Shown here in pieces: positions 21,046 through 57,560 of a DNA stretch of 64,000 nucleotides (positions are counted from its first letter, which is position 1; the number at the start of each line of letters is the position of its first letter). The notes beneath the pieces were generated by a model. It was not told the origin of the DNA. It was given only the letters and a program-made list of their open reading frames with translations, and did no database searches. The translations under genes and the position numbers were made by a program. This DNA is from Pseudomonas urmiensis (GTDB lineage Bacteria; Pseudomonadota; Gammaproteobacteria; Pseudomonadales; Pseudomonadaceae). Where the stretch lies: assembly GCF_014268815.2 (NCBI RefSeq), contig NZ_JABWRE020000001.1:4717001-4781000 (forward strand), read 5' to 3'.

Positions 21046-21222
21046 TGACGCGCTTCCTTGGATTCGTTGCCGGGGCTTTGCAGTTGTACGCCCCGCTGAT
21101 GGAGTGACATTAACAGCACATCACATATATCTATAAATCATATTTTTTCATTTGTTTATTCCATTTTTAATATAAAGCGAAACCAGCGATTGCGTGGGAG
21201 AAGGCTGCGTGGAAAACGGATT
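21046..21222. promoter_or_regulatory. ssu operon upstream region
   Basis: Between ssuE and the REP palindrome. The part at 21115-21180 is markedly AT-rich (ATCTATAAATCATATTTTTT, then the motif at 21155-21164), the normal look of a CysB-type sulfur promoter; a clear -10/-35 pair is not evident. Closer to the REP palindrome there are two degenerate 15-16-bp units starting TGCGTGG that mirror the tandem array on its other side. Confidence 0.45.
21155..21164 (+). promoter_or_regulatory. YTTATTCCAY motif, copy upstream of ssuE
   Basis: TTTATTCCAT, about 110 bp upstream of the ssuE start. Identical to the copies at 31334 and 57515. Confidence 0.45.
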
Positions 21223-21278
21223 GCGTGGGAGCGGGCTTGCCCCGCGATAGCTATCGCGGGGCAAGCCCGCTCCCACGC
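21223..21278. repeat. Perfect 56-bp REP palindrome
   Basis: Two REP cores joined head to head without any spacer: the 28 bp starting GCGTGGGAGCGGGCTTGCC are followed immediately by their exact reverse complement, centred on AGCT. Other REP pairs in this window have a 10-40-bp centre. Confidence 0.93.
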
Positions 21279-21369
21279 AGCCGCTCCTCCATGCAGCCCT
21301 TCTCCCATGCAGCCCTTCTCCCACGCAGCCCTTCCTCCACGTAGCCCGTCTTCCACTTAGCCCGTCTTC
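21274..21369. repeat. Tandem array of six 16-bp units
   Basis: Six consecutive 16-bp units of type CATGCAGCCCTTCTCC; units 2 and 3 are identical and units 4-6 diverge by a few bases each. The first unit begins inside the outer arm of the REP palindrome (CACGC), so the array looks like it grew from the end of the REP. Confidence 0.88.
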
Positions 21370-21402
21370 CAGGCCAACGCTGCCTGAGTTTCTCTCAGGC
21401 AT

Positions 21403-21426
21403 AAAAAAGGGCCGTCGAAACGGCCC
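21403..21426 (-). terminator. Rho-independent terminator of lsfA
   Basis: On the minus strand GGGCCG, loop TTTCGA, CGGCCC, then a run of six T. It lies 43 bp after the lsfA stop and separates lsfA from the ssu operon. Confidence 0.9.
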
Positions 21427-21468
21427 GAAGATCCCTGCTTGGCTAAGAGCAATGCAACGAGGAATAGC

Positions 21469-22107
21469 TTAACGATTCGGTTGTGGCGTCAGACGCAGAT
21501 AGGGCTTCACGGCACGGTAGCCTTTGGGGAAGCGCTGCTTGATTTCGTCTTCGTCCTTGAGCGACGGCACGATCACCACTTCGTCGCCGTCCTGCCAGTT
21601 ACCTGGGGTGGCGACCTTGTAGTTGTCGGTCAGCTGCAACGAGTCGATCACCCGCAGGATCTCATTGAAGTTGCGCCCGGTGCTGGCTGGATAGGTAATG
21701 GTCAGGCGCACTTTCTTGTTCGGATCGATCACGAACAGCGAGCGCACCGTCAGGGTGTCGTTGGCGTTGGGGTGGATCAGGTCGTACAGGTCGGAAACCT
21801 TGCGATCGGCGTCGGCGATGATCGGGAAGTTGACCACGGTGTTCTGCGTTTCGTTGATGTCATCGATCCATTTGTGGTGCGAGTCGACCGGGTCGACCGA
21901 CAGGGCGATGGCCTTGACCCCACGCTGGGCGAAGTCATCCTTGAGCTTGGCGGTCAGGCCCAGCTCGGTGGTGCACACCGGGGTGAAATCGGCAGGGTGC
22001 GAGAACAGCACGCCCCAGCTATTGCCCAACCACTCGTGGAAGCGAATCTTGCCAGCGCTGGAATCCTGTTCGAAATCGGGGGCGATGTCGCCGAGTTTGA
22101 GGCTCAT
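21469..22107 (-). CDS. lsfA: 1-Cys peroxiredoxin LsfA
   Basis: Thiol peroxidase of 212 residues, a Prx6-type enzyme induced under sulfate limitation in Pseudomonas. The peroxidatic cysteine is C45 in SHPADFTPVCTTELG, and there is no resolving cysteine motif near the C-terminus, as expected for the 1-Cys class. A C-terminal extension (PSLKDEDEIKQRFPKGYRAVKPYLRLTPQP) is typical of Prx6. It is transcribed on its own, with a terminator after it and an AT-rich promoter region before it. It probably protects cells from peroxide when sulfur, and hence thiol, is scarce. Confidence 0.95.
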   Translation of the reverse strand: MSLKLGDIAPDFEQDSSAGKIRFHEWLGNSWGVLFSHPADFTPVCTTELGLTAKLKDDFAQRGVKAIALSVDPVDSHHKWIDDINETQNTVVNFPIIADADRKVSDLYDLIHPNANDTLTVRSLFVIDPNKKVRLTITYPASTGRNFNEILRVIDSLQLTDNYKVATPGNWQDGDEVVIVPSLKDEDEIKQRFPKGYRAVKPYLRLTPQPNR

Positions 22108-22169
22108 GGTGCGGCTCCTGTGTCTGCGTTATGGGTTCAATGTGCCTGTCTTCGCTTCAAAACAAAAAG

Positions 22170-22187
22170 AATAAATATCGATTTATT
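22170..22187. promoter_or_regulatory. AT-rich palindrome in the lsfA promoter region
   Basis: AATAAAT, ATCG, ATTTATT: a perfect 7-4-7 inverted repeat 63 bp upstream of the lsfA start, within an AT-rich tract. Candidate operator or part of the promoter; the binding protein is unknown. Confidence 0.4.
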
Positions 22188-22224
22188 TATAACTAGAATG
22201 CATACGAAATCTTAGGCACAAAAA

Positions 22225-22250
22225 AGCCTCGCACTAGGCGAGGCTCTTTT
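22225..22250. terminator. Rho-independent terminator of the OprD-family porin gene
   Basis: AGCCTCGC, loop ACTAG, GCGAGGCT with A-rich and T-rich flanks on the two sides. It lies 15-40 bp beyond the porin stop on the minus strand. Confidence 0.92.
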
Positions 22251-22264
22251 TGTGCAACTGCGAC

Positions 22265-23626
22265 TTACATGAAGTTGTAAGTGTAGTTGACGATCAGACG
22301 GGTCTGATCCTGATCGGCTGGCGACTCACCTTCACCACGGTAGATGCCGTGGCGCAGGCTAGCGCCCAAGCCTTTGAAGGTGCCTTCCTGGATCACGTAG
22401 TCGATACGAGCATCACGCTCCCACTCGCTGTAGGTGCCGTGGCCAGACTCATTCCGGATATCAGTACCACGCAGGTAAGCGACGGATGCCTTCAGACCTG
22501 GCACACCAACGCGTGCAAAGTCATAGCTGTACTGGCCGAACGTGGTGTTAGTACCAGCACGTGCGAACTGGTTGATCATGCTATCGGTGAACAGGTAGAA
22601 GCTTGCGCCGCCCGCACCTTCCGAAGCCGAGTTCAAACCGTCTTTACGCACGTTGCCCTGGTTCAGCCAGACGAAGCCACCGTCATCACTAACTTGCTGG
22701 TGACCCAGCATGAGGGAGTGACCGCCGAGGGTATAAGTGAACATGGCGCTCCAGGTCTTGTTATCGACCTCGCCGGGATTCTTGGCATAACCACCGTTGT
22801 TACCGAAGTTATAGCCGCCACCGTCGCCATTCTTGCCGTCGCTGCTGCTGTCGAAGTAGCGCAGATCAGTCTTGAACGACTGGTCATCGGCGATTTTGAA
22901 GACGTGAGTCGCACCCAGGAAGTGCTGCTTGTAGAAGTCTTCCAGGTTCGAGTAGTAGTACTGCAGGGTAAGGTCTGGGGTGAGCTTGTAGTCCAGGCCA
23001 CCGTAGCGGAACTTGTTGCTATCGTTGTAGGCGCCAGAGCCCGAAACAGAAAGACCCGTACGGTTGCTCGAGGCACGACCCATAGCGTGGGTCAGCTGAC
23101 CCGCGTTGATGGTCAGGTTGTCGATTTCTTTCGAGGTGATGGTGCCACCCTCGAAGGTCTGCGGGAGGACACGACCGTCGTTGGCAACCAGGATCGGAAG
23201 GTTCGGCGCAAGGGCACTACCGAAATGCGCTTCAGTCTTCGAGAAGCGAGCCTTGGCGTTGGCACCGAAACGAGCCCACTGGTTTACCGAAGAGCCGTTG
23301 CTAGCGTCAGGCATGAAACCGCTTTTGTGGTAACCACGGCCACCGTCCAGGTGGATACCCCACACCGCTTGAGCATCAACACCAAAGCCTACAGTGCCTT
23401 CAGTGAAGCCCGAAATGTAGTCAAGCTTGAAGCCTTGACCAGTCTCGCGCTGATCCGGACGCTTGAAGTTAGTAGAGCTGCTAGCGTGAGCTTCACGGTT
23501 ATCGTTGTCGTAGTACATGGTGCGCGAGCTCAGGGACAGCTTGCTGTCCTCAACGAAACCAGCAGCGCCTGCTTGTTGGGCGAGAACCCCCAGTGCCACG
23601 GCCAGAGCCAGGCTGGACTTGTACAT
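22265..23626 (-). CDS. oprE: OprD-family outer-membrane porin (OprE-like)
   Basis: Outer-membrane substrate-specific porin of 453 residues. A signal peptide is followed by AGFVEDSKLSLSSRTMYYDND, the typical OprD-family mature N-terminus; the barrel shows alternating aromatic strands and ends NYTYNFM with a near-terminal aromatic. The family imports small acids, amino acids and similar nutrients. In P. putida an OprE-type porin sits between lsfA and tauA, which suggests a role in organosulfur uptake, but the substrate is not shown. It has its own terminator and a long upstream region. Confidence 0.88.
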   Translation of the reverse strand: MYKSSLALAVALGVLAQQAGAAGFVEDSKLSLSSRTMYYDNDNREAHASSSTNFKRPDQRETGQGFKLDYISGFTEGTVGFGVDAQAVWGIHLDGGRGYHKSGFMPDASNGSSVNQWARFGANAKARFSKTEAHFGSALAPNLPILVANDGRVLPQTFEGGTITSKEIDNLTINAGQLTHAMGRASSNRTGLSVSGSGAYNDSNKFRYGGLDYKLTPDLTLQYYYSNLEDFYKQHFLGATHVFKIADDQSFKTDLRYFDSSSDGKNGDGGGYNFGNNGGYAKNPGEVDNKTWSAMFTYTLGGHSLMLGHQQVSDDGGFVWLNQGNVRKDGLNSASEGAGGASFYLFTDSMINQFARAGTNTTFGQYSYDFARVGVPGLKASVAYLRGTDIRNESGHGTYSEWERDARIDYVIQEGTFKGLGASLRHGIYRGEGESPADQDQTRLIVNYTYNFM

Positions 23627-23911
23627 GTTTTGCTCCTCTACGTTCTAATTTTTGTGTATCTCAGGCGGCGGGATCTGCTGCCCCGCTCTGCCGTGGATGG
23701 GCGATTTAGTCCCAAAGTGTGACCGTGAAGTCAATCATTTCTAATCGTTTCACGACTTTGGTCTAAGACGCCACCTGCGCTACAGGATAATGACAATCCT
23801 ATAAATCCAAAATGACTGTTTTATGAATCTGTAAGACTTTTGCGGAATATCCTAGGAACCTTTACTACCAAAAGTTGTATCGGCGACCCCGTATAGAGCT
23901 TTAGGTTATTT

Positions 23912-23923
23912 GCAAACGTTTGC
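23912..23923. promoter_or_regulatory. Palindrome GCAAACGTTTGC, LacI/GalR-type operator candidate
   Basis: Perfect 12-bp palindrome with a central CG, the layout favoured by LacI/GalR-family repressors. It lies 286 bp upstream of the porin start and 7 bp from a YTTATTCCAY motif. Confidence 0.4.
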
Positions 23924-23930
23924 TCATAAC

Positions 23931-23940
23931 CTTATTCCAC
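23931..23940 (+). promoter_or_regulatory. YTTATTCCAY motif, copy between the porin gene and tauA
   Basis: CTTATTCCAC, identical to the minus-strand copy between sftP and sftR at 54140. Confidence 0.42.
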
Positions 23941-24007
23941 AACGATCTGTAGGGCCGCGAAAGGCTAGCAGGCGATTCTGATTTTTCCAGGCAAGAAGGT
24001 TGTCAGT

Positions 24008-24108
24008 GCGGGCCTCATCGCGGGGCAAGCCCGCTCCCACGCAGAGCCCGAAACCGTGAGGACGACCCAGATTGCGTGGGAGCGGGCTTGCCCCGCGATG
24101 AGGCCCGC
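24008..24108. repeat. Inverted REP pair
   Basis: Facing REP copies with arms GCGGGCCTCATCGCGGGG and CCCCGCGATGAGGCCCGC around a 45-bp centre, 115 bp upstream of tauA. Confidence 0.92.
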
Positions 24109-24223
24109 AGGCTTAAAGCATTTGGCTCCTAAGCTAATGCTAAAAAGTTATTTATTTACGATTTCTTAGATCATCTAGTCTTCTCGCCATAATCATCCCG
24201 ATTGCCTGACGAGGAGTTCAACC

Positions 24224-25195
24224 ATGATCCCGCACACTCCGCTGCGCCTGTTCGCCGCCCTGACCCTCGCCAGCACCAGCTGGTTCGCCCAGGCAGCCGA
24301 CCTGACCGTCGCTTACCAGACCACCGTCGACCCAGCCAAGGTGGCCCAGGTCGATGGCGACTATGAAAAAGCCAGCAAGGCCAGCATCGACTGGCGCAAG
24401 TTCGACAACGGCGCCGACGTGATCACCGCCGTCGCCTCGGGCGATGTGCAAATCGGCTACCTCGGTTCCAGCCCACTGGCTGCTGCCGCCACCCGCAAGC
24501 TGCCAGTGGAAACCTTTCTGATCGCTACCCAGATCGGCGCCGGTGAAGCGCTGGTCGCCCGCGACAGCATCAAGACCCCGCAAGACCTGATCGGCAAGAA
24601 AGTCGCGGTGCCGTTCGTCTCCACCGGCCATTACAGCCTGCTTGCCGCACTGAAGGCGTGGAACATCGACCCCTCCAAAGTGCAGATCCTCAACCTCGCG
24701 CCACCGGCAATCATCGCGGCCTGGAAGCGCGGCGACATCGATGCCACCTACGTGTGGGACCCAGCACTGGGCGTGGCCAAGGAAAACGGCAAGGTACTGA
24801 TCACCTCCGGTGAACTGGCGCACAAAGGCGCACCGACTTTCGACGCCTGGATCGTGCGCAAGGACTTCGCCGACAAGCATCCAGAGGTGGTCAAGGCCTT
24901 CGCCAAAGTGACCCTCGACGCCTACGCCGACTACCGCAAAGACCCCAAAGCCTGGCTGGCCAACCCTGACAACGTGGCCAAGCTGGCCAAGCTCTCGGGC
25001 GCCAAGTCCACGGACATCCCGGTCCTGCTGGAAGGCAACGTCTATCCGCTGGCCGCCGACCAGGCCAATGCCCTCGGTGCTCCGACCACCCAGGCGCTGA
25101 CCGACACCGCCACCTTCCTCAAGCAACAAGGCAAGGTCGATGCGGTACTGCCGGACTATTCGCCCTACGTCAGCGCCAAATACCTCCCCAACTGA
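24224..25195 (+). CDS. tauA: Taurine-binding periplasmic protein
   Basis: Binding protein of 323 residues with a signal peptide (cleavage predicted after WFAQA, before [13 protein letters not shown]). [36 protein letters not shown] and [11 protein letters not shown] are family hallmarks. It feeds taurine to TauBC. First gene of tauABCD; GAGGAG lies 9 bp upstream. Confidence 0.96.
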
Positions 25196-25208
25196 TCCGG
25201 AGCCTGTC

Positions 25209-26003
25209 ATGGCCTTGCTTGAACTGGAGCGCATCAGCGCACAGTACCCCGGCGCCGCCACCCCGGTGCTGGCCGACATCAACCTGAGCCTGGGTCCACG
25301 CCAGCTGCTGGTGGCCCTGGGGCCATCGGGCAGCGGCAAGACCTCGCTGCTCAACCTGATCGCCGGCTTCGTCGCCCCCAGCGGCGGACGCATCACCCTT
25401 GACGGCGTGCCGGTGCAAGGCCCCGGCGCCGAACGTGGGGTGGTGTTCCAGGACGACGCCCTGCTGCCTTGGCAGGATGTGCTCGGCAACGTTGCCTTTG
25501 GCCTGGAACTGGCCGGCGTAGCGCGCGCCGAGCGCGAGGCGAAAGCCCGCGAAATGCTCGCGCTGGTCGACCTGGCAGACTTTGCCGAACGGCGTATCTG
25601 GCAGCTTTCCGGTGGTCAGAAACAGCGCGTGGGCCTGGCCCGGGCACTGGCGGCCAACCCCCGCGTGCTGCTGATGGACGAGCCGTTTGGCGCACTCGAC
25701 GCCTTTACCCGCGAACAGATGCAAGAGCTGTTGTTGCAGGTCTGGCAGCGCACTGCCAAGCCAGTGTTCCTGATCACCCACGATATTGAAGAAGCGGTTT
25801 TCCTCGCCAGCGAACTGGTGTTGCTGGCGCCCAATCCCGGTCGCGTGGTCGAGCGCCTGCAACTGGACTTCGGCCAGCGCTACGCCGCCGGTGAATCGGC
25901 GCGGGCGATCAAGTCCGATCCGCGCTTCATCGAAACCCGCGAGCACGTGCTGGCGCGGGTGTTCTCGCAACGCGAATCCACCCGCCGGGAGGCGTCCCTA
26001 TGA
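25209..26003 (+). CDS. tauB: Taurine ABC transporter ATPase
   Basis: ATPase of 264 residues with Walker A GPSGSGKT, signature [15 protein letters not shown], Walker [17 protein letters not shown] and H-loop [10 protein letters not shown]. The ATG at 25209, 13 bp after the tauA stop, is correct; the frame stays open further upstream within tauA. It overlaps tauC by 4 bp. Confidence 0.96.
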
Positions 26004-26839
26004 GCAGCCTTGAATTGCCCGTCGCCGGCAAACCCACCCGCCAGAGCAAGTCCGTGATCAAGCTGCGCCGATCACTGCCGACCCGCTGGATCAGTGCCCT
26101 GACCCTGACCGCGCTGCTCGTACTGTGGTGGCTGGTGACCGCCGCGGGCTGGGTCGAGCCGTTGTTCCTGCCGTCACCTGCCTACATCCTGGCCAAGGCC
26201 TGGGTGCTGCTGACCCAGGGCTACATGGACGCCAGCCTGTGGCAGCACCTGGGCGCGAGCCTGGGGCGGATCGGCCTGGCACTGGCGGCGGCGACCCTGA
26301 CCGCGATCCCGGTGGGCATCGCCATCGGCTACAACCGCATCGCCCGCGGCATTCTCGATCCGCTGATCGAGTTCTACCGGCCGATCCCACCGCTGGCCTA
26401 CCTGCCGCTGATCGTGATCTGGTGCGGCATTGGCGAGTTGTCCAAGGTGCTGCTGATCTACCTGGCGATCTTCGCCCCGATCGCCATCGCCACCGCTACC
26501 GGGGTGCGCACCGTCGACCCGGCCAAACTGCGCGCCGCGCAGTCGTTGGGCGCGAGCAAAGCGCAGCTGATCCGCCATGTGATCCTGCCCAGCGCCCTGC
26601 CCGACATCCTCACCGGTATCCGTATCGGCCTGGGCGTCGGCTGGTCGACCCTGGTCGCCGCCGAGCTGATCGCCGCCACCAGTGGCTTGGGCTTCATGGT
26701 GCAGTCGGCGTCGCAGTTCCTCGTCACCGACGTGGTGGTGCTGGGCATATTGTTGATTGCCCTGATCGCCTTCGCCCTGGAGATGGGCCTGCGCGCCCTG
26801 CAACGCAAGCTGGTGCCCTGGCACGGACAAAGCTACTGA
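26000..26839 (+). CDS. tauC: Taurine ABC transporter permease
   Basis: Inner-membrane permease of 279 residues with about six helices. The EAA loop reads [25 protein letters not shown]. The N-terminal ~35 residues are basic and cytoplasmic ([17 protein letters not shown]). It overlaps tauB by 4 bp and is followed 52 bp later by tauD. Confidence 0.95.
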
Positions 26840-26849
26840 TGCTGACTGA

Positions 26850-27725
<876 letters not shown>

Positions 27726-27774
27726 GTCCGGATGGCAGGGAGATACGAGCAATACGGTGTAGCGTGAGAGCTGG

Positions 27775-27925
27775 GAACGTGGGGCTGGGAGCGTGGGAGC
27801 GGGAGCGTGAGCGTGAGCGTGGGAGCGGGCTTGCCCCGCGATAGCGCGCGTGAACTCACCATCGCTATCGCGGGGCAAGCCCGCTCCCACGCTTCTAGCT
27901 TCTAGCTTCTAGCGGCTAGCTCCTC
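27775..27925. repeat. REP pair with short tandem repeats on both sides
   Basis: The REP pair itself is 27817-27892. To its left lies a purine-rich run of GAGCGT/GGGAGC units (27786-27816), to its right three tandem TTCTAGC units (27893-27913) followed by GGCTAGC. Both flanks look like slippage products of the REP ends. Located between the convergent tauD and BCCT genes. Confidence 0.88.
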
Positions 27926-27952
27926 CCATCCTGCTCGATCCTCCGCTCGCAG

Positions 27953-29950
27953 CTACCTGACCAAGTGCAAGAACTGCATATGCCGCTCGTACTGGTCGAG
28001 GATGTCGTTGATGATCTGCTCCTTGCTGTAGCCCACCAGGTCATAGTTCTGGCTACCTTCGGCCAGATGCACCTCGGCCCGGTAGTAACGACGGTTCTTC
28101 AAGTCCTGGGCACCCAACCCACCCAGCGCGAAGGACGGGGTGAAATACCCACGCATCTGCACCTGGTAGATAAACGGCTGTTCCTCGCCATGGCCGATCT
28201 TCAAGCTGACGTTGTCATGGCTCGGGTCATCCTGGGTAATCAGCACCAGGCCCTTCTGCTCGAACACCTCGCGCACCTCGGCAATCGCCGGACGCACGAC
28301 ATCGTCCATGAACCGGTACACCTCATCGCGTGAAGGGAAATGCACCGCCTGGCTCAAGCGTTGCCGCCAGCCACCCCGGCCGCGGCGCGACTGGGCGAAC
28401 GGCGCCAGCGAGTGCATCTGCGCGATCTGCCGTTGCGACTCCAGGTAGAACGCCTTGTGCAGCCCCCACATCATGCACAGCAAGATCAGCGAGAACGGCA
28501 ACGAGGTCAGTACCACGGCAGATTTGAGCGAATCGATACTGCCGGCGAACAACAAGCTGCTGGTGATCAGCGCAGTCATCGCGCCCCAGAAGATCCGCAG
28601 CCAGTTCGGGCCATCTTCGTCGGCGTTGCCATCCTTGGCCGACAGGGTCGAAAGCACCACCGTGCCGGAATCTGCCGAGGTGACGAAGAACACGAAGCTG
28701 ATGAACACCGTCACGGCGATCACCGTCTTGCTCCAAGGGTAGGTTTCCAGCAGCAAGTACAGGCTCATCGACGGGTTATCCAACGCCGACTGGCCGAGCG
28801 CGGTCATGCCGTGGTTGATCACCTGGTCCAGGGCGCTGTTGCCGAAGATCGACATCCACGCCAGGGTGAAGCCCAGCGGAATCAGCAGCACGCCGAAGAC
28901 GAACTCGCGGATGGTCCGGCCACGCGAGATCCGCGCGATGAACAAGCCCACGAACGGCGCCCAGGCAATCCACCAAGCCCAGTAGAAGACTGTCCAGCCA
29001 CCCAGCCAGTCGCGGTTCTCGCCGTAGGCATAAACGTCGAAGCTCTTGCGCGGCAAGGCGCCGAGGTAGTCGCCCAGGTTCTGGATCAAGGTATTGAACA
29101 GGTGCTGGGTGGGCCCTGCGAACAGCACGAACAACAGCAGCGCACAGGCCAGGAACAGGTTGATGTCGGACATCACCCGCACACCCTTCTCCACCCCGGC
29201 GACCGCCACGGCCACCGCCGCGCCCATCATCAAGGTGATGAGGATGACCTGCACCCACTGGCTATGATCGATGCCGAACAGGTAATCCAGGCCAGCATTG
29301 AGGTGCAGCACACCAAAGCCCATGTCGGCGCCCAGGCCAAACACCGTGGCGATGATGCCAAAGCCGTCCACTGCGTAACCGATCGGGCCGTTGATGCGTT
29401 TGCCAATCAACGGATACAGCGCCGAGCGCAACGCCAGCGGCAGGTTATGGCGATAGGCAAAGTACGCCAGCGCCATGCCGACGAAGGCGAACACGCCCCA
29501 GCCATGCAGGCCCCAATGCAGGAACAGCACCTGCATCGCCTGCCGCCCAGCCTCGGCGGTACCGCCTTCGCCTTGCGGCGGTTGGAGCATGTGGGTCAGG
29601 GGTTCGGAGACGCAGAAGAAGAACAAGGTGATGCTGATGCCTGCGGCGAACAGCATGCCGGCCCACGACAGGTAACTGAACTCGGGTTCGTCGTGGTCGG
29701 CACCGAGCTTGATCTTGCCGTAGCCAGACAAGGCGGTGACCACCACGAAGACCAGGTACAGGGTCATCGCCAGCATGTAGTACCAGCCGACCGTATTGGC
29801 CGCCCAGTTCTGTGCCGCGAGCAGCCAATCGCCTGCCGCTTGAGGGTTGGCAATGACCACCAGGCCGAAGATCAGGATGAAACTTGCCGCGAAATAGAAC
29901 ACCGGAGGGTTCATGCGGATATTGCTGGAAGAGGTGGAAGGTGCACTCAT
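27953..29950 (-). CDS. BCCT-family choline/glycine-betaine transporter
   Basis: Secondary transporter of 665 residues with 12 predicted helices and a long C-terminal cytoplasmic domain of about 140 residues (from PSRDEVYRFMDDVVRP on), as in BetT-type carriers, where the tail senses osmotic state. The conserved Trp-rich BCCT segment FYWAWWIAWAPFVGLFIARISRGRTIREF is present. Likely substrates are choline, betaine or carnitine; taurine-like or sulfonium compounds (DMSP) are also carried by some relatives, which would suit the sulfur neighbourhood. GGAGG lies 11 bp before the ATG. A possible TetR-type operator lies upstream. Confidence 0.9.
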   Translation of the reverse strand: MSAPSTSSSNIRMNPPVFYFAASFILIFGLVVIANPQAAGDWLLAAQNWAANTVGWYYMLAMTLYLVFVVVTALSGYGKIKLGADHDEPEFSYLSWAGMLFAAGISITLFFFCVSEPLTHMLQPPQGEGGTAEAGRQAMQVLFLHWGLHGWGVFAFVGMALAYFAYRHNLPLALRSALYPLIGKRINGPIGYAVDGFGIIATVFGLGADMGFGVLHLNAGLDYLFGIDHSQWVQVILITLMMGAAVAVAVAGVEKGVRVMSDINLFLACALLLFVLFAGPTQHLFNTLIQNLGDYLGALPRKSFDVYAYGENRDWLGGWTVFYWAWWIAWAPFVGLFIARISRGRTIREFVFGVLLIPLGFTLAWMSIFGNSALDQVINHGMTALGQSALDNPSMSLYLLLETYPWSKTVIAVTVFISFVFFVTSADSGTVVLSTLSAKDGNADEDGPNWLRIFWGAMTALITSSLLFAGSIDSLKSAVVLTSLPFSLILLCMMWGLHKAFYLESQRQIAQMHSLAPFAQSRRGRGGWRQRLSQAVHFPSRDEVYRFMDDVVRPAIAEVREVFEQKGLVLITQDDPSHDNVSLKIGHGEEQPFIYQVQMRGYFTPSFALGGLGAQDLKNRRYYRAEVHLAEGSQNYDLVGYSKEQIINDILDQYERHMQFLHLVR

Positions 29951-30182: not shown

Positions 30183-30204
30183 TCTATCTCGGCACTATCG
30201 ATTA

Positions 30205-31333: not shown

Positions 31334-31343
31334 TTTATTCCAT
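31334..31343 (+). promoter_or_regulatory. YTTATTCCAY motif, copy between epsC and tcyJ
   Basis: TTTATTCCAT, 173 bp upstream of tcyJ and 200 bp upstream of epsC; identical to the ssuE and atsB copies. Confidence 0.42.
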
Positions 31344-31515
31344 CCTGCGCTAAGTCGGGCATAAGCAGCACTGACGGACTACCCTCAGAGCTGCCTGATC
31401 ACTGACAAAAATTATCAATGGGAATAACAAAATAAGTTTTTATTATTTCCAGGCCTATACAGCCCACCCCTATAGTCGCCACCCACCACTTCCACAACAA
31501 GCGCGGGGCTCTGAC

Positions 31516-33830: not shown

Positions 33831-33985
33831 TTCGTTTCACGGCCAGAAAACTGCTTCTATTTATATTCCAAAAGGTTAGTTCATAAAGTTTTTATAAGCG
33901 AATAGGGTATATGCACCGGACCACCGGACCAACAAACGTCTGTCGCCACCACCACCCGCGACACAGCCACTTTGTGAGGTAAGGA
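33831..33985 (+). promoter_or_regulatory. Upstream region of the sfnB-like operon
   Basis: AT-rich from 33855 to 33915, with TTATATTCCA (one base off the shared sulfur motif) and ATAAAGTTTTTATAAG, which shares AAGTTTTTAT with the tcyJ promoter region. Possible -10 elements lie around AATAGGGTATAT near 33900-33912. Confidence 0.4.
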
Positions 33986-34054
33986 ATGGTCAGGATCACA
34001 ATCACCCCAGTGCATAACGCCAGGGCATTGAGTGCAGCCAAGGAGCGGTACTGA
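33986..34054 (+). CDS. Possible 22-residue leader peptide upstream of sfnB-like gene
   Basis: Short ORF starting MVRITITPVH and ending AAKERY, with GAGG 6 bp before the ATG. Its TGA overlaps the ATG of the following sfnB-like gene by one base (TGATG), and that gene's AAGGAG lies inside the short ORF. This layout is typical of translational coupling. It has no Cys or Met run that would suggest classical attenuation. Whether the peptide itself is made or matters is not shown. Confidence 0.45.
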   Translation: MVRITITPVHNARALSAAKERY

Positions 34055-49995: not shown

Positions 49996-51672
49996 TCAGA
50001 AGGCTTTATCCAGATCGATCACCAGGGCGCGATAACCGACACTGCCCGGCTGCCGGCTGAGCACCTTGAGCTCCACCAACACTTCCTGGCTGCCCCGGCG
50101 CACTTCATTGAGGGTAGTGCTGGTCAGCTTCTCCTTGGTCAGGAAGCCCACCGAAGCGGAATAGATGAACTGGGTATCGGTCTCCGGCCGATAAGCCACC
50201 ACCGAGGTCACCGGGCTATACCACTCATCGCCACGCTCCTTGCCATACTCCCAGACCTGCTCGACCGTGCCCTTGGCCTCATCGATGCGGTACTCAACGG
50301 CGCGGCTGTAATTGCCGCTGAGCTTGGTCGGCTCGAAGTTGCGCCCCCAGCCGTTGTCGAACACGGTCAGCGTGCCTTTGCCGGTAAGCCAGGCGGTGTG
50401 CTGGGTCCACGACCAGTCGAAGCCTTCGCTGGCCACAGGCGTCAGTACTTTGTCCTTGAGCCGCTGTGGCCAACCCTGGGGCGAGGCGAGGATCCACTTC
50501 ACCTGTTTGTCTCGGCCAATTTTCACCACGCCCTGATGACGGGCTGAAACGATGATGCTGTCGTCTTCTGCGTCGTAATCGATGGCATTGACGTGCGCCC
50601 AGTTGCGCCCGGTGCCCACGCCTGGGGTATCGCCGAACGGCAAGTCACCTTCGGCCAGTTCATTGGCCAGGGTGCTGTCCTGCTTGGCCACGCCGTCCGG
50701 CAACTGGATCGCCGCTTTGCCGAGCGTTTCCAGCAACTCGCCACGGTACGGATCGAGGATCTGGTTGAGGTCCCAGAAGTCCAGCACGTCACCCGCTTCG
50801 TTGACCTCAATGATGTGGTCGCGGATCGAACGCACCCGCTTGCCATCCGGGCGGCGGTAGTCGCTGGTGCCGACGCGCAGCAGGTAGGTGCCGTTGACCG
50901 TTTCGCGGATCTCGTGGGAGAAGTCGGCGAATTTGTCTGGCAGGGTGCGCTGCCACACCTGGCGGCCGAGCAGGTCGTACTTGGAATAGGTCTGGCCTTG
51001 GCCCCAGATCAGCTTGCCGTCGCGGGTCTGCTGGAAGCCCATGGTCCCGCCCAGGCCGTCGCGGCGGTTGGAGTCGTGGATCTGCTCGATGTCCAGGTAC
51101 CAGCGCACATCGCCATTGCTGTCGGCGATCCAGTTGTTGCCGACCTGGTCCCATTCGGCAGCGCCGCCCAGGGCGTTCCACTTCAGTGCGCGGCCACCCG
51201 GAATATCGCCGAGCAGGTGGTTGAACAGGTACAGGCGTTTCTCGAAGCCCGGCGCGACCTTGACCGGCACCACCTGCGGCAGCGCCGCTGTCTGTTTTGC
51301 CACCACTGGCAAGCGCACGGCCGGGGCATAGATTTCGTACTGTTCGCGAATTCGCTCGCCATCGAGCTTGTAGCTGACTTCGACCTGGTTGACGTGATCC
51401 GGGTACAAGCCAAACACCGGGATGCCGCCATAGGTCCACAGCGAGCGGTCGGATACGTCGTAGACGATATCCACCCCGCGCTCGCCCCGCCCGCGCACGC
51501 GTACATGGGCAGCGCTGATGGCCCGACCACCATCGCGGATGATCGCGGTCAGTGGCGCCAGGCGATAGGGGTTGACCACTACATCGCCGAGCAGCGCCTC
51601 GTCATGGTCGGGCACCTTGGCGGTGAGGCAAGCGCCTTCGGGCAAGGCGGGGGTGTCGGTCTTGGCATTCAT
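49996..51672 (-). CDS. astA: Arylsulfate sulfotransferase AstA
   Basis: Arylsulfotransferase of 558 residues (PF05935 type, beta-propeller), which transfers sulfate from an aryl sulfate ester to a phenolic acceptor. The ATG at 51672 follows AAGGAG by 7 bp; the frame is open further upstream within sftP. Repeated propeller segments such as GGTMGFQQTRDGKLIWGQG and HVNAIDYDAEDDSIIVSARHQ are visible, the latter containing His residues of the active-site type. No signal peptide is evident (MNAKTDTPALPEGACLTAK), unlike the periplasmic ASST of enterobacteria, so it is probably cytoplasmic. It follows sftP by 17 bp. Confidence 0.9.
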   Translation of the reverse strand: MNAKTDTPALPEGACLTAKVPDHDEALLGDVVVNPYRLAPLTAIIRDGGRAISAAHVRVRGRGERGVDIVYDVSDRSLWTYGGIPVFGLYPDHVNQVEVSYKLDGERIREQYEIYAPAVRLPVVAKQTAALPQVVPVKVAPGFEKRLYLFNHLLGDIPGGRALKWNALGGAAEWDQVGNNWIADSNGDVRWYLDIEQIHDSNRRDGLGGTMGFQQTRDGKLIWGQGQTYSKYDLLGRQVWQRTLPDKFADFSHEIRETVNGTYLLRVGTSDYRRPDGKRVRSIRDHIIEVNEAGDVLDFWDLNQILDPYRGELLETLGKAAIQLPDGVAKQDSTLANELAEGDLPFGDTPGVGTGRNWAHVNAIDYDAEDDSIIVSARHQGVVKIGRDKQVKWILASPQGWPQRLKDKVLTPVASEGFDWSWTQHTAWLTGKGTLTVFDNGWGRNFEPTKLSGNYSRAVEYRIDEAKGTVEQVWEYGKERGDEWYSPVTSVVAYRPETDTQFIYSASVGFLTKEKLTSTTLNEVRRGSQEVLVELKVLSRQPGSVGYRALVIDLDKAF

Positions 51673-51689
51673 GGCAAAGCTCCTTGTGC

Positions 51690-54026
51690 TCAGAAGTCGT
51701 AACGGGCGGTGGCGCCCACGGTGCGCGGGGTGCCAAGCACGCCGGCATAACCGCCGTTGGCGGAGTTCCACAGGCTGGTGAAGTAGGTCTTGTCGCCGGC
51801 GTTCTTGACCCACAGCGACAGGTCGAGCACGCCATCACCCTGGTCCAGGCGCACGCCGGTGGAGAGGTTGACGATCGCGTAGCTGGGGATCTGGCCGTAG
51901 TCGGAGTCGTCGATGGTGCCCACCGCCTTGGAGCGGAAGGCGTAGCTGGCGGTAACGTAGGGTTCGATACGCTCGGTCAATTGCCACTTGTACTGGCCGT
52001 TGAGGTTGGCGATGTACTTGGAGGCGCCGACCACCTGGTGCCCGGACAGGTCGCAGGTGGCGGTGGCGCTGGCCAGGCTCACTTCAGGTGGGCATGGGGC
52101 GTCTTTGTAGTCGGTGTAACGCACATCGTTCCACGAGCCGTTGAAGTTGACCGTGAGGCCGGTGATCGGCAGCGCAGTGGCCTCGAACTCAAGGCCGCGC
52201 GAGCGCACGCTGCCGGCGTTGGCTAGGTACTGCACGCGGTTGACCTGGTCGTAGACGTTGGCCTGGTAGCCATGCACCTCGGCCCAGAACAGGTTGGCGT
52301 TGAGCTGCAGGCGGTTGTCGAGCAACGTGCTCTTGAGGCCCAGCTCAGCGTTGTTGACCCGCTCGGTGCCGACCAGCAACGAATCGGTCCCAAGCCGTGG
52401 CGCGGCACCGACAGTCAGGTTGACCCCGCCCGACTTCTCGCCGTGGGTGAGGCTGGCGTAGCCCAGCAGGTCGTCGGTAAAGCGGTAGCTCAGGCTAAGC
52501 AGGCCCGAGGGGCTGAAGCTGTACTGGTTGAGGTCACCCGAGTCGTAGGCGCCGACGCGACCATTGCGCGCCGCCGCCGCCGCTCCAGATACCGCCGTGC
52601 CGCCAGACGGGGCATCGCGGGTGACCCAGGCGCTCTTCTCTTCATACGTACCGCGCACTCCGGCAGTGAAATCCAGGCGCTCGGTGAGGTGCCAGGTGCC
52701 TTGGGCGAACAGCGCGTAGCTGTCGGTATCGATGTGGCCATTGCCGATGGTGTTGACGTTGGCCAGGGCGCCAGCGGGCGTCTGGTTCCAGATATCGGCC
52801 TGCGGGCCGTAATAGGTGAACGACTTGTTATCCAGGTCCTGCTTGAAATAGTAGGCACCCAGGACATAGTCGAAGAAGCCGCCGGTGGGCGAGGCCAGGC
52901 GAATCTCCTGCGAATACTGCTTGTCGCGCACCGAGACCCCAGCGCTGTAGAACACCGGCACATCCAGGCCATCGTCGTTGCGCGGGGTGAAGTCCCACCA
53001 GCGGTAGGCGCTGATCGAAGTCAGGGTGAAATCGTTGGGTAGGGTCCAATTGGCCTCTACCGACGTTCCCCCCTGGAACACCGTGACCTGCTGCTCGGCA
53101 TCGAAGTTGACCTTGCGGTCCTTGCCCGACACCAGTGTGGCGCCGGCCTGGGCGGCCAGGCTCTCGTAGCGGTTGACGCCATTGATGGTCGGGCCGGTGC
53201 TGTACAGGCTGAGAATGCCGTTGTCGGAATTCTCCTCGTTGTACTCGCCGATCCAGCGCAGGTTGAAGGTTTCATTGGGCTGAAACAGCAGCTGGGTTCG
53301 AAAGCCTTGGCGCTTGCCGCCGTTGAGGTCGTGGCCGTCGTGGACGTTCTTCACATAGCCGTCGTCTTCAGTGTGGTAGGCGCTGATGCGCCCGGCCAAG
53401 GTGTCGCTGATCGGCCCGGAGAAACTGCCCTGGGTCTGCCAGTAGCCATCCTCGCCCAGCGACGACTGCACGCTGCCTTCGCGATGGAAGGTCGGTTTGC
53501 GGGTGGTGATGTTGAGCACCCCGGCGGTGGTGTTCTTACCGAACAGCGTGCCCTGCGGGCCGCGCAGCACTTCCAGCTGCTCGACGTCGAGCAGGTCGAA
53601 CACGGCCATGCCCGGGCGACCAAGATAGACGTTGTCCAGATAAATGCCGACGCTGCCTTCCAGACCGTCGCTGGCCGGGTTGTTGCCCAGGCCACGGATC
53701 GAGATGCTCGACTGGCGGGCGTGAACGTAGGCCACGTTGGTGCTCGGTACTAACTGCTGAAGGTCCTGAACCCGGTAGATGCGCTGGGTTTCCAGGGTTT
53801 CGCTGCCCAGCACGCTAATCGGCGTGGGCACGCTCTGCGCGGTTTCCTCGCGGCGACGCGCGTTGACGGTAACGGTGCCGAGCTTGGCGGCTTGCTCCAC
53901 CGCCGGGGTGGCGCTGACCGGCTCGTCAGCAAAGCTGTTGCCAGCGGCGGCCAGCAGCACGCCAGCGGCCAGGGGCTGCAGGGCGAAGAGTGATGCGCGC
54001 GCGGGCCAACGATAGATTCGGGACAT
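51690..54026 (-). CDS. sftP: TonB-dependent receptor SftP (sulfate ester uptake)
   Basis: Outer-membrane receptor of 778 residues with a signal peptide (PLAAGVLLAAAGNSFA, before DEPVSATPA), a plug domain (VQDLQQLVPSTNVAYVHARQSSISIRGLG; EQLEVLRGPQGTLFGKNTTAGVLNITTRKP) and a 22-strand barrel ending GATARYDF with the terminal Phe. In P. putida the TonB receptor next to astA and the LysR gene sftR is SftP, used for sulfate esters. AGGAG lies 6 bp before the ATG. It forms an operon with astA. Confidence 0.93.
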   Translation of the reverse strand: MSRIYRWPARASLFALQPLAAGVLLAAAGNSFADEPVSATPAVEQAAKLGTVTVNARRREETAQSVPTPISVLGSETLETQRIYRVQDLQQLVPSTNVAYVHARQSSISIRGLGNNPASDGLEGSVGIYLDNVYLGRPGMAVFDLLDVEQLEVLRGPQGTLFGKNTTAGVLNITTRKPTFHREGSVQSSLGEDGYWQTQGSFSGPISDTLAGRISAYHTEDDGYVKNVHDGHDLNGGKRQGFRTQLLFQPNETFNLRWIGEYNEENSDNGILSLYSTGPTINGVNRYESLAAQAGATLVSGKDRKVNFDAEQQVTVFQGGTSVEANWTLPNDFTLTSISAYRWWDFTPRNDDGLDVPVFYSAGVSVRDKQYSQEIRLASPTGGFFDYVLGAYYFKQDLDNKSFTYYGPQADIWNQTPAGALANVNTIGNGHIDTDSYALFAQGTWHLTERLDFTAGVRGTYEEKSAWVTRDAPSGGTAVSGAAAAARNGRVGAYDSGDLNQYSFSPSGLLSLSYRFTDDLLGYASLTHGEKSGGVNLTVGAAPRLGTDSLLVGTERVNNAELGLKSTLLDNRLQLNANLFWAEVHGYQANVYDQVNRVQYLANAGSVRSRGLEFEATALPITGLTVNFNGSWNDVRYTDYKDAPCPPEVSLASATATCDLSGHQVVGASKYIANLNGQYKWQLTERIEPYVTASYAFRSKAVGTIDDSDYGQIPSYAIVNLSTGVRLDQGDGVLDLSLWVKNAGDKTYFTSLWNSANGGYAGVLGTPRTVGATARYDF

Positions 54027-54217
54027 GCAATGCTCCTTGAGGCATGGGCCGTGGCGAGCATTTCCGTTGTCGGAACCGAATCGCGGTCAGGCAGACTTAT
54101 ATTCTTTTAAGATCTATAAATATGTGTAATTCATATTTTGTGGAATAAGTAACACTCTTTATAAGGGTCACAACCCTTCCCATCAATTGCATTTCACCGA
54201 AAGTTTTCATGTAGAAA
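54027..54217. promoter_or_regulatory. Divergent sftP/sftR promoter region
   Basis: 191 bp, very AT-rich at 54090-54170 (TTCTTTTAAGATCTATAAAT, then the motif at 54140). LysR-type regulators normally bind such a shared region; a T-N11-A box is not unique here. No strong Shine-Dalgarno precedes the sftR start. Confidence 0.45.
54140..54149 (-). promoter_or_regulatory. YTTATTCCAY motif, copy between sftP and sftR
   Basis: CTTATTCCAC on the minus strand, identical to the copy upstream of tauA at 23931; 114 bp upstream of sftP. Confidence 0.42.
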
Positions 54218-55132
54218 ATGCATATAGATCTTCGTCAGCTGCGCCACTACATCGCCCTTGTCGAACACCGCAGCTTTGTCGCCGCGGCGGCGGCGGTGAA
54301 CCTGTCGCAATCGGCCTTCAGCCGCAGCATTCAGACCCTGGAGCACAACGTTGGCTGCCGCCTGGTCGACCGCGCCAGCAAGGAGCTGGCGCCGACTCGG
54401 CAAGGCTTGCTGGTGCTGGAGCACTCACGGCGGTTGGTGCATGGCGCACACAACCTGGTCAACGAGATCAACCAGTTCAACGGCGCGACCACTGGGGTGG
54501 TGCGCTTCGGCTCAGGGCCTGCGCCGGCGGGCGGCTTGGTGCCGCGCGCGGTGGCGCGTTTCGTCAGTGAATTTCCGGCGGCGCGCACCTGTTTCCAGGT
54601 GGATAACTGGCAGGCGTTGAACCGCAAGTTGATTGCCGAGGAGATCGAGTTCTTCGTGGCCGACACCCGCCAGTTCGAGGCTGATCCGGATTACCGCGTG
54701 CACAAGCTGACGCCGCAGCGCTGGCACTTCTGCTGCCGCGCCGGACATCCGTTGACCGAGCAAGCCGAGGTACGTGCGCGAGATCTGTTCGATTACCCCC
54801 TGGCGACCACCTTCCGCCCGCCGAATATCCGCAAGATCCTCAGCGACCTCAGCGGTCGCCAGGATTTTCTGCCTAGCGTGGAATGCGAGCATGGCTATGC
54901 GCTGCTCAATGTGGTGCTGCACTCGGACACCATCGGCATCGCCTGTAGTGCCAACTTGCGGCCGTATCAGGGTGAGCGAGGGTTGATGGCGCTGCAGTTG
55001 GTGGACCTGACGGCGGAGCAGGAGCAAGAGTGCTACACCCGCTACGGGGTGGTAAGCCGGGTCGGGTATGGCTTGTCGCCGTTGGCGCAGGGGTTGGTCA
55101 GGCAGTTGATTGCCTGTGATGCGCAAGCCTGA
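54218..55132 (+). CDS. sftR: LysR-type regulator SftR
   Basis: LysR-family activator of 304 residues. The N-terminal winged helix is at about 1-60 (LRQLRHYIALVEHRSFVAAAAAVNLSQSAFSRSIQTLE) and the effector-binding domain at ~90-300. It is divergent from sftP-astA and close to atsRK and atsBC. In P. putida S-313 the LysR gene in this position, SftR, is needed for expression of the sulfate-ester genes; assignment rests on that gene order. Confidence 0.9.
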   Translation: MHIDLRQLRHYIALVEHRSFVAAAAAVNLSQSAFSRSIQTLEHNVGCRLVDRASKELAPTRQGLLVLEHSRRLVHGAHNLVNEINQFNGATTGVVRFGSGPAPAGGLVPRAVARFVSEFPAARTCFQVDNWQALNRKLIAEEIEFFVADTRQFEADPDYRVHKLTPQRWHFCCRAGHPLTEQAEVRARDLFDYPLATTFRPPNIRKILSDLSGRQDFLPSVECEHGYALLNVVLHSDTIGIACSANLRPYQGERGLMALQLVDLTAEQEQECYTRYGVVSRVGYGLSPLAQGLVRQLIACDAQA

Positions 55133-55156
55133 ATGCTGCTTAGGGTTCGTGCTGCC

Positions 55157-55257
55157 TAAGCTTCGTAGGAGCGGGATAAGCTTCGTAGGAGCGGGCTTGC
55201 CCCGCGATAGCAGTGGTGAATTCACCATCGCTATCGCGGGGTAAGCCCTCTCCTACG
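55157..55257. repeat. REP pair preceded by a 20-bp tandem duplication
   Basis: TAAGCTTCGTAGGAGCGGG occurs twice in tandem (55157-55176 and 55177-55196), the second copy running into a REP core; a facing REP copy ends at 55257. The centre contains GGTGAATTCACC. Located between the convergent sftR and atsK genes. Confidence 0.9.
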
Positions 55258-55262
55258 TTGCA

Positions 55263-56168
55263 TCAGCCCTTGCGCGTAGTCCGGCTCAACTGCCCATCAA
55301 CCCCCACCGGCACCTCCCCTGCCAAGGTCACCCGGCGCACGATCCGCGGCTGGGTCCCATAGTCATCCACCGCATAATGCTGGGTGGCGCGGTTATCCCA
55401 GATCGCCACATCGCCCGCCTGCCAGCGCCAGCGCACGGTGTTCTCCAGGCGCGTCACATGGCCCTGCAACACGGCAAACAAATGCTGCGAATCAGCCAGC
55501 GAATAGCCCTTGATACGCTTGACGAAATGCCCCAGCTGCAACGCCCGCTCGCCACTGATCGGGTGCACCCGCACCACCGGATGCTCGGTCTCGTAGACGG
55601 TCGAGGTGAACACCTTGCGATAACGCTCAAGCTTGGCGGGATCAACGTCGGGCTTGAGGCTGGCGTAGTCATACTCGTTGCTGTGCACCGCCCACAATTT
55701 GTCCGCCAGCTCGCGCAGCGCCTCCGGCAACTCGCGATATGCCGCTGCCGTGTTGGCCCAAACCGTATCGCCGCCTGAGGTCGGCGCCACCACGCTGCGC
55801 AGGATCGAGGCCTTGGGGTAGGCATCGACAAAGGTCACATCGGTGTGCCAGGAGTTGGCCCGCTGCCCTTCGGCACCATCGAGCTGCAACAAGTAACTGG
55901 TGCCATCGACCACGGGCACCGTGGGATGGGCGACCGGCTCGCCGAGCAGCTTGGCGAAGCCTTCCTGGCTCTGGTCATCCAGATGGGTCTGCTCACGGAA
56001 GAAGATCACCTTGTGCTCGACCAGTGCGGCCTGAATGGCCTCGACGGTCGCTGCATCGAGGTCGGCGGCAAGCTTGACCCCGCGTATCTCGGCGCCGATG
56101 CGGCCGGCAATCGGCTGGATGTCGAGCTCAACGGTGTGCGGCGCGGTGGCCAGTGCGGCATTGCTCAT
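55263..56168 (-). CDS. atsK: Alkylsulfatase AtsK, Fe(II)/2-oxoglutarate dioxygenase
   Basis: Oxygenolytic sulfatase of 301 residues that converts medium-chain alkyl sulfates to aldehyde and sulfate with 2-oxoglutarate and oxygen. From the ATG at 56168 (MSNAALATAPHTVELD) the iron ligands fall at H108, D110 and H264, and the 2-oxoglutarate-binding arginines at R275 and R279, the same numbers as in the P. putida AtsK structure. It lies 42 bp downstream of atsR, forming atsRK. A longer start at 56189 is open but unneeded. Confidence 0.96.
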   Translation of the reverse strand: MSNAALATAPHTVELDIQPIAGRIGAEIRGVKLAADLDAATVEAIQAALVEHKVIFFREQTHLDDQSQEGFAKLLGEPVAHPTVPVVDGTSYLLQLDGAEGQRANSWHTDVTFVDAYPKASILRSVVAPTSGGDTVWANTAAAYRELPEALRELADKLWAVHSNEYDYASLKPDVDPAKLERYRKVFTSTVYETEHPVVRVHPISGERALQLGHFVKRIKGYSLADSQHLFAVLQGHVTRLENTVRWRWQAGDVAIWDNRATQHYAVDDYGTQPRIVRRVTLAGEVPVGVDGQLSRTTRKG

Positions 56169-56210
56169 TGCGGTGGTCCTCACGGTCAAATGAAGGGGGC
56201 TTTGCGGTTA

Positions 56211-57263
56211 TCAGCGAGCGGCCTGGGTGGCCTGTTGTGCTTGCAGCGCAGCATCGAGGAAGCGCGGCTCGATCCAATCAGAAACCTGGAAGCTGCGACG
56301 GATCAGGCGTTCCTTGGCCGCCAGGTCGACGCCCTGTTGCAGCAGGCCGACGAATTCGGCGTCCAGCCGCGGATCGAAGTAGTGCGCGAGGTTCTCCTGG
56401 GCCAGGTCGCCTTCGAGGATCACCTTGGGATAGTTGGCGGTGCTCGCCACCAGATCGACGTAGGCCTGGCGGTTGTTCTCATCGCGCAGCCACTCGGTGG
56501 CCTGCTGCTGAGCCTTGACCAGGCGGGCGGTCAGCTCAGGGTGCTGGCGAATGAATTCGCCGGTGCCAAGCAGCACCGCCTGGGTGCTGCCAGCGCCCTT
56601 GAGGTCGCGCGAGTTGACCGGCAGTTCGACCAAGCCGCGATCGCGCAGCGAGAGCAGGTTGGACAGCCCCCAAGTGGCGTCGATCTGCTTGGCAGCAATG
56701 GCGGCATTGGCGGCGTTGAAGTCCAGGTTGATGACCTTCAGATCGCGCTCCGACAGCCCTTGGCTGGCCAAGGCACTGGCAAATGACAGTTGGTTGGCCG
56801 TGCCGCGAAATACCGCCACCCGCTTGCCCTTGAGGTCTTGCAGGGTCTTGATCCCGGAGCCTGGCACCACGCCCAGGTAGCTTTTCACCCCGCGCACCCC
56901 GGCCGACAGCACGCGGGTATCCAGGCCATTGGCCTTGCCGATGATCGCCGCCAGATCGCCCAGGTAGGCGAAGTCCGCCTGGCCGTTGGCCAGGGCTTCG
57001 TTGATCACCGGGCCTGCGCCCTTGAAGAAGCGCCAATCGATCTGGATGCCGTCCTTGGCAAACTCTTTCTCCAGCAGTTGCTGGCTGCGCAGCACGTCCA
57101 CCACCCCGCCCGCGCTGGGCTTGCTGCCAGCGCTCAAGTCGGGCACGGCAATGCGGATGGTGTCGACCTCGGCGGCCTGCGCGTTCAGCGCAAAGGCGCT
57201 GAGCACGCCAGCCAGCAGGGTGGGGGCGAAACGACTGAGCAAGTGACGCAGTGGGCTTTTCAT
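56211..57263 (-). CDS. atsR: Sulfate-ester-binding periplasmic protein AtsR
   Basis: SsuA/TauA-type binding protein of 350 residues with a signal peptide (LLAGVLSAFALNAQA, before AEVDTIRIAVPDLSAG). Segments DWRFFKGAGPVINEALANGQADFAYLGDLAAIIG and GKRVAVFRGTANQLSFASAL are typical of sulfonate/sulfate-ester binding proteins. It is divergent from atsBC, which encode the matching permease and ATPase, and is followed by atsK. Confidence 0.93.
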   Translation of the reverse strand: MKSPLRHLLSRFAPTLLAGVLSAFALNAQAAEVDTIRIAVPDLSAGSKPSAGGVVDVLRSQQLLEKEFAKDGIQIDWRFFKGAGPVINEALANGQADFAYLGDLAAIIGKANGLDTRVLSAGVRGVKSYLGVVPGSGIKTLQDLKGKRVAVFRGTANQLSFASALASQGLSERDLKVINLDFNAANAAIAAKQIDATWGLSNLLSLRDRGLVELPVNSRDLKGAGSTQAVLLGTGEFIRQHPELTARLVKAQQQATEWLRDENNRQAYVDLVASTANYPKVILEGDLAQENLAHYFDPRLDAEFVGLLQQGVDLAAKERLIRRSFQVSDWIEPRFLDAALQAQQATQAAR

Positions 57264-57560
57264 GGCAAGGCTCCTTGGCAGGCTGCCACCGGCGAGGGCC
57301 GGCGCTTTGGCCAGAAGCTAGGCGGGTCTGCTTAGTACCAACAAAGATCAAATCTTCATTTTTTAGTAACTGAAAGATATAAATGAGGCGCTGCGCGGGC
57401 CGCAGCCCGGCTTGCGTGAAACGCATGGAAAATATGAGGAAAACGCAACGCCGATAGGCTTCCCCATGCATGAAACGCATGTTCTTATCTCTTGAAGTAC
57501 ATTAATGGAGATTTTTTATTCCATAAATGAATAATCTAACAACGCTTCGAGAGATGCCCG
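57264..57560. promoter_or_regulatory. Divergent atsRK/atsBC promoter region
   Basis: 297 bp. AT-rich tracts at 57340-57385 (atsR side: AAAGATATAAATGAGG) and 57480-57535 (atsB side). It carries the shared motif at 57515-57524 inside GATTTTTTATTCCATAAATG. GAGATG just before the atsB ATG gives only a modest ribosome-binding site. Confidence 0.45.
57515..57524 (+). promoter_or_regulatory. YTTATTCCAY motif, copy between atsR and atsB
   Basis: TTTATTCCAT, 36 bp upstream of the atsB start; identical to the ssuE and epsC-tcyJ copies. Confidence 0.45.

Follow-up and report, generated by a model that had tools for sequence, protein, structure and literature searches.

A 64-kb stretch of the Pseudomonas urmiensis genome (contig NZ_JABWRE020000001.1, positions 4,717,001 to 4,781,000; here, the window) raises the question of what a short word, the 10-mer YTTATTCCAY, is doing in front of several sulfur-scavenging genes. 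The original prediction held that the word is shared by five organosulfur promoter regions and may be part of the site of CysB or of a second regulator. A shared regulatory element in these promoters is strongly supported by our analysis, with CysB as the best candidate for its reader, but this element and the 10-mer are not the same thing. Taken as a whole, the evidence is best explained if the 10-mer is the conspicuous part, in most cases a box at one end, of an element of ∼40 bp, probably an operator at sulfur-scavenging operons through which an activator, most likely CysB, responds to sulfur starvation.

A conserved element in sulfur-scavenging promoters

We compared orthologous upstream regions, read from the gene start, of ssuE, tauA, tcyJ, sftR, atsB, and the sulfate-binding-protein genes. 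Most contained an AT-rich block of ∼40 bp, which greatly exceeds the 10-mer in length (for ssuE, in 15 of the 23 loci read). The element approximates RGAATAA-N13-TAttATTTttaaGnnTA in the ssuE, tcyJ, and sbp2 sets, and an expectation-maximization (EM) fit aligned ssuE, tauA, tcyJ, and sft in a common register (for example, ssuE AATGGAATAAACAAATGAAAAAATATGATTTATAGATATA, tcyJ ATGGGAATAACAAAATAAGTTTTTATTATTTCCAGGCCTA, and tauA CTAATGCTAAAAAGTTATTTATTTACGATTTCTTAGATCA); the oscA-sbp promoter, outside the fit, reads TTGGTTATATAAACATTCTTAAACAGTATTTTTAAGAATA. All sets have a proximal TTT..taaGnnTA end in common, and the distal GAATAA is present in 9/14 ssuE, 7/14 tcyJ, and 7/8 sbp2 sequences. The distance from the element end to the best −10-like hexamer was 12 to 13 nucleotides (nt) in all 14 ssuE, all 14 tcyJ, all 8 sbp2, and 13 of 15 oscA sequences, a fixed spacing that holds in four of five gene sets and by which the element would span about −64 to −25. 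Partial mirror symmetry within the element makes its strand ambiguous at three places, tauA, sft, and lsfA. A mirrored TTATTCC occurs outside the distal box at a best spacing of 5 in ssuE and tcyJ and of 7 in sbp2; the ats copy has the dyad TTATTCC-ATAAA-TGAATAA, which is weak in most other copies. Separately, the oscA-sbp promoter (L160, 1098 to 1137; own genome, ∼5292455 to 5292494) contains a TTATATAAAnATTCTTAAAnAGTnTTTTTAAGAATA block that hardly varies within the genus.

The final scoring matrix was built from 88 sequences of six genes in other species, the own genome being excluded. Loci dropped were L031 to L038 for ssuE (those without the block), L054, L063, L065, and L066 for tauA (of 21), L086, L087, and L091 for tcyJ (of 18; dropped at the final stage for low score), L114 to L123 for sftR (10 of 30; <59% identity), L148 for ats (of 25), and the sulfate-binding-protein loci L165, L177, and L178. 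Because no consistent site emerged for atsB when it was included in an EM fit, ats was kept out of the training set. An early version of the matrix recognized E. coli cys promoters poorly. Ten sites in the window score at least 12.8 bits (ssuE, tcyJ, tauA, sft, lsfA, ats, two at the porin gene, sfnB, and atsR) (Table 1), a threshold that equals the tenth window score and was set afterwards, the next background score being 10.7. All ten lie in sulfur-locus promoters, with the porin gene counted by position only, and no site was found in 21 other intergenic regions of the window; the background intergenic test covered the first 120 of those ≥100 bp long. Across 400 kb of own-genome background a single site reached the threshold, at 1736267, before a gene for an SsuD-like monooxygenase and one for an SsuA-type protein. 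When the gene in question was withheld from training, no background window scored as high as ssuE, tcyJ, or sft, and one did so for each of tauA and oscA. Column-permuted matrices, in which base composition is preserved, never scored as high in 200 trials, either on the five 10-mer-bearing intergenic regions (observed, 34.5; permuted mean, 13.5; maximum, 18.6) or on the held-out lsfA and sfnB regions (observed, 22.6; permuted mean, 11.7; maximum, 20.8).

Whole-genome profile searches recovered further sulfur genes. Profile R1 (28 of 41 ssuE, tauA, and tcyJ sites, own ones included) gave eight matches at E ≤ 10, three of them training sites; the other five lie at the oscA-sbp promoter, msuE (assigned by TIGR03566, above cut-off), a serine-hydrolase gene, the sftP/sftR region, where sft was held out, and lsfA. 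Profile R2 (36 of 51 sites from six genes, own ones excluded) gave ten matches at nine sites; the SsuD-like locus and a TauD-family gene were new relative to R1, and msuE was no longer among the matches. The element reaches genes that the original prediction did not list, namely, lsfA and the porin gene in the window and msuE and oscA-sbp elsewhere in the genome.

Table 1. Element copies, 10-mer, and candidate SftR sites in the window
Feature	Position	Strand	Matrix score (bits)	Remarks
ssuE element	21126..21165	−	45.9	0/798440 background windows as high; 10-mer at 21155 is the distal GGAATAA box
lsfA-like 1-Cys peroxiredoxin element	22165..22204	+	27.0	Gene outside training
Probable element towards OprD-family porin gene (22265-23626, −)	23802..23841	−	19.1	
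Weak second porin-side site	23894..23933	−	14.1	Overlaps 10-mer at 23931 by three bases
tauA element	24134..24173	+	35.8	Conserved in tauA orthologues
10-mer between serine acetyltransferase gene and tcyJ	31334..31343	+		Word match; no element
tcyJ element	31418..31457	+	37.3	GGAATAA at 31421; conserved in tcyJ orthologues
sfnB element (gene at 34054)	33864..33903	−	18.2	Gene outside training; holds most of TATATTCCAA
sftP/sftR element and adjoining 10-mer (54140-54149)	54100..54149	−	30.2 and 29.5	
Candidate SftR site upstream of sftR	54176..54215	−		Shared by 19 further sftR loci, the source of its matrix
Weakest site, towards atsR	57333..57372	−	12.8	
Candidate SftR site, atsR/atsB region	57420..57459	+		Weak own copy; SftR matrix score −5.3, reached by 6/798440 background windows
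atsR/atsB element	57486..57525	−	23.6	ats outside training; 10-mer at 57515 is the distal box

The sft element can be placed at 54100-54139 (−) or, when the gene is withheld from training, at 54108-54147 (+). At the lsfA-like gene (21469-22107, −), profiles R1 and R2 matched the strand opposite to the matrix site. The block around the stronger porin-side site looks alike by eye in loci L046 to L050, and sfnB was identified by TIGR04022. The PF06821 serine-hydrolase gene preceded by the element (L192, ∼1488 to 1527; own genome, 5299062) lies between ExbD and a sigma-54-type activator, ∼6 kb from sbp; its relation to sulfur is by position only, and it is possibly a new sulfur gene. Inverted GC-rich repeats of the form GCGGGGCAAGCCCGCTCCCACGC occur at 21220-21280 and 24015-24100, in the same intergenic regions as element copies, and repeats of this type also occur in the flanks of L160 and L191; they resemble repeated extragenic palindromes.

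CysB as the probable reader

A single CysB is encoded in the genome (NF009326, 600 bits). It shares 65% identity with Escherichia coli CysB overall, and its DNA-binding domain matches too, with 50 identical positions among the 66 N-terminal residues. A Cbl was not found, the five other matches being just 26 to 29% identical. Judging from sequence, CysB is likely to be the protein that binds the element. In cysB upstream regions L376 to L396 (L386 left out), a matrix never trained on cysB scored ≥25 in 11 of 20, 19 of these 20 loci coming from organisms not named Pseudomonas; permuted matrices gave a mean of 0.43 such loci and a maximum of 4. At L376, L379, L380, L383, L387, L389, and L392, a strong copy of the element lies between cysB and a divergent open reading frame (ORF) starting like TauE/SafE, and Pfam assigned this gene to the TauE/SafE sulfite-exporter family in all four loci scanned (L376, L383, L389, and L392). 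In E. coli, four of six CysB/Cbl genes (cysP, cysK, cysD, and tauA; not cysJ or ssuE) have TTATTCC in the 260 bp before the gene, compared with 3 of 66 control genes having room for a promoter (6 of 124 in all). The gene cysD is under CysB/Cbl control. For the other E. coli genes, this control is taken from PMC11329422 and from titles cited in PMC12581299.

Known CysB sites offer both likenesses and differences. Those of Salmonella and E. coli (cysP, cysK, and cysJIH; PMC11329422) are likewise AT-rich, ∼40 bp long, and located upstream of and reaching the −35 of sulfur-regulated genes, and a Salmonella cysJIH primer used in electrophoretic mobility shift assays contains TTATTCC (PMC6277577). 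According to a 2024 structural paper, CysB sites consist of 19-bp half-sites with their center 50 to 60 bp upstream, and their consensus is very weak (PMC11329422), unlike the fixed register seen here; the core of the element also faces the opposite way from that of the E. coli sites. Judged from the −10-like hexamer at fixed spacing in four of five sets, the center of the element would fall at about −45. The LysR-type T-N11-A pair, such as the BenM ATAC-N7-GTAT cited in PMC11329422, has a similar two-box layout, and TTCC-N5-GGAA at some copies conforms to T-N11-A, but the dyad is clear here just at ats and some tcyJ orthologues. Chromatin immunoprecipitation sequencing of CysB in Pseudomonas syringae gave >1,000 peaks (PMC11957545), and the available text of that paper yielded no motif. 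No such Pseudomonas CysB consensus was found in a literature search that had most subscription papers and all supplements outside its scope, nor in the available parts of published work on PA2206 and alginate.

We infer that a protein binds the element, that this protein is CysB, and that its binding activates transcription. LysR-type activators usually have a distal recognition box and a proximal box at −35. In the proposed mechanism, CysB and its inducer would bind the element with the proximal box on the −35 and the distal box near −60, matching the LysR-type layout of a recognition site far out and an activation site at −35, and the ∼40-bp cis element would thereby switch on sulfur-scavenging operons under sulfur shortage.

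Some findings weigh against a CysB operator and would suit a different sulfate-starvation regulator reading the same, real element, an alternative that we regard as unlikely. The Pseudomonas cysB promoter scored no better than composition (60 sequences; 23 of 200 permutations reached the score), E. coli promoters were marginal (6 of 200 permutations as high), and TTATTCC in E. coli is oriented opposite to Pseudomonas. Such a regulator would nevertheless have to be found in a genome with neither Cbl nor a second CysB-like protein, and the element adjoins cysB itself in those 11 of 20 mostly non-Pseudomonas loci and is present at a sulfate-uptake promoter (oscA-sbp) as well as at organosulfur genes. 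On the same adverse side, 8 of the 23 ssuE loci lack the block; the distal GAATAA is found in only 0/16 tauA, 0/19 sft, and 1/15 oscA sequences; the tauA set lacks the fixed −10 spacing; sbp2 fails when left out of training, with 109 background windows scoring as high; and orthologue counts are not independent of one another. The held-out profile matches have weak and rough E-values (0.12 to 6.8), and no cysI, cysDN, or cysH promoter was among the profile matches, those genes not having been located.

The 10-mer and sequence composition

The five matches to YTTATTCCAY are where the original prediction had placed them, at 21155 (+), 23931 (+), 31334 (+), 54140 (−), and 57515 (+), and all are intergenic, as it had stated; the one-mismatch form TATATTCCAA is likewise present at 33862, before sfnB. 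Dinucleotide shuffles of the window gave a mean of 0.10 matches and at least five in 0/100, a figure that overstates significance because the 10-mer was chosen post hoc from the same data. The 5.79-Mb genome contains 15 copies, compared with 5 of the reversed word, and 5 of the 15 fall in the window; evenly spaced stretches of the same genome, 400 kb in total, had none. This clustering is real. Among 99 Pseudomonas genomes (own included) we counted 1,252 copies versus 816 of the reversed word, the 10-mer being more frequent in 80 and less frequent in 13.

As a functional unit, the 10-mer was rejected. It is poorly conserved: the full word is present in 2 of 14 ssuE orthologues (own genome excluded) bearing the element, in which GGAATAA occurs in 3, GAATAA in 9, and ATAA in all 14. 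It lies inside the element in two of five cases (ssuE and ats), and at sftP/sftR it abuts one element placement and overlaps the other. In the oprE/tauA and epsC/tcyJ regions the conserved element sits elsewhere (24134 and 31418), and no matrix site of ≥11 was found at the 31334 10-mer. The rest of the genome has ten further copies, seven overlapping predicted ORFs and three in intergenic DNA. At the eight of these loci scanned (all but L004 and L007), no sulfur family scored above cut-off; the proteins were an extracytoplasmic function (ECF) sigma factor, DapE, a transhydrogenase, a histidinol dehydrogenase, an EutR-like regulator, a thioesterase, and an amino-acid binding protein, with no family match at all at two loci and a cystine-binding model matched below cut-off at L015. 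The original prediction had proposed genome-wide enrichment at sulfur promoters and conservation in orthologous promoters as its own checks; the 10-mer largely lacks both, while the longer element has them.

That the 10-mer is itself the binding site of a separate regulator is very unlikely. Its clustering in one window and its excess over the reversed word across 99 genomes would fit such a site, but the word is not conserved as a 10-mer, its other ten copies lie mostly in ORFs without sulfur families above cut-off at the loci scanned, and the SftR-type element described below has a different sequence at other positions.

The 7-mer core, TTATTCC, has six of its seven window copies in the five 10-mer-bearing intergenic regions; the sixth, absent from the original prediction, is the GGAATAA at 31421 that marks the real tcyJ element. 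It was rejected as a genome-wide marker (133 copies versus 114 of the reversed word). Among the first 100 of these 133 places, with annotation covering few of the neighbor genes, the matrix reached ≥12.8 at an SsuA-type binding protein gene (L242), sbp2 (L266), and an unannotated place (L263). Further such matches at L270, L277 (two), L290 (two), and L291 were taken, without proof, as false positives (GC content over 1 kb, 0.41 to 0.46 versus 0.62 in the background).

Composition is a real hazard, with low-GC genome stretches scoring up to 21.1 and permuted matrices 13.5 on these promoters, but that the matrix mirrors AT-rich promoter composition rather than a site is scarcely credible given the 34.5 observed versus at most 18.6 in 200 permutations, the genome-wide recovery of held-out loci, and the fixed register to the −10-like hexamer. 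Two stretches of the own genome, 3.40 to 3.42 Mb and 4.06 to 4.10 Mb (L277, L278, L290, and L291), have low GC content (0.45 to 0.51 per locus) and are rich in TTATTCC; they are possibly acquired islands and give rise to false positives.

A second element and the wider regulon

SftR controls sulfate-ester genes, and the sftR and ats upstream regions have a distinct second block in common. A matrix from 19 sftR upstream regions scored a mean of 11.6 on 24 ats upstream regions, compared with −13.4 (standard deviation, 2.1) for permuted matrices, none of 300 being as high; on ssuE, tauA, and tcyJ it found nothing (13, 84, and 86 of 100 permutations as high). The second element, strong in other species and weak in the own ats copy, differs from the 10-mers in sequence and position and does not overlap them. 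It is probably the SftR site and would add substrate-specific control at the sulfate-ester genes. The cluster atsACBR-sftR-atsK-sftP is named in PMC3596284.

In sulfur-starved Pseudomonas aeruginosa, msu, ssu, cys, and lsfA are induced, lsfA >45-fold (PMC12581299), and the evidence that element-bearing genes respond to sulfur limitation comes from such P. aeruginosa orthologues. A broader reading, which we put forward tentatively, is that the single Pseudomonas CysB reads a precise, bipartite ∼40-bp operator in a rigid promoter register at operons for uptake and desulfurization and so fills the role that CysB and Cbl share in enterics, with the SftR-type element layered only at sulfate-ester operons. 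In other Pseudomonadales and related bacteria the same operator lies between cysB and a TauE/SafE gene, which would then mark it as an old code that allows the sulfur-starvation regulon to be read genome-wide.

The element supplies exact fragments for binding tests. A clear operator of fixed spacing, with power to predict sulfur genes across genomes, would connect induction of the peroxiredoxin gene lsfA with sulfur control through a cis element and would make the sulfur-starvation regulon of Pseudomonas legible from sequence.

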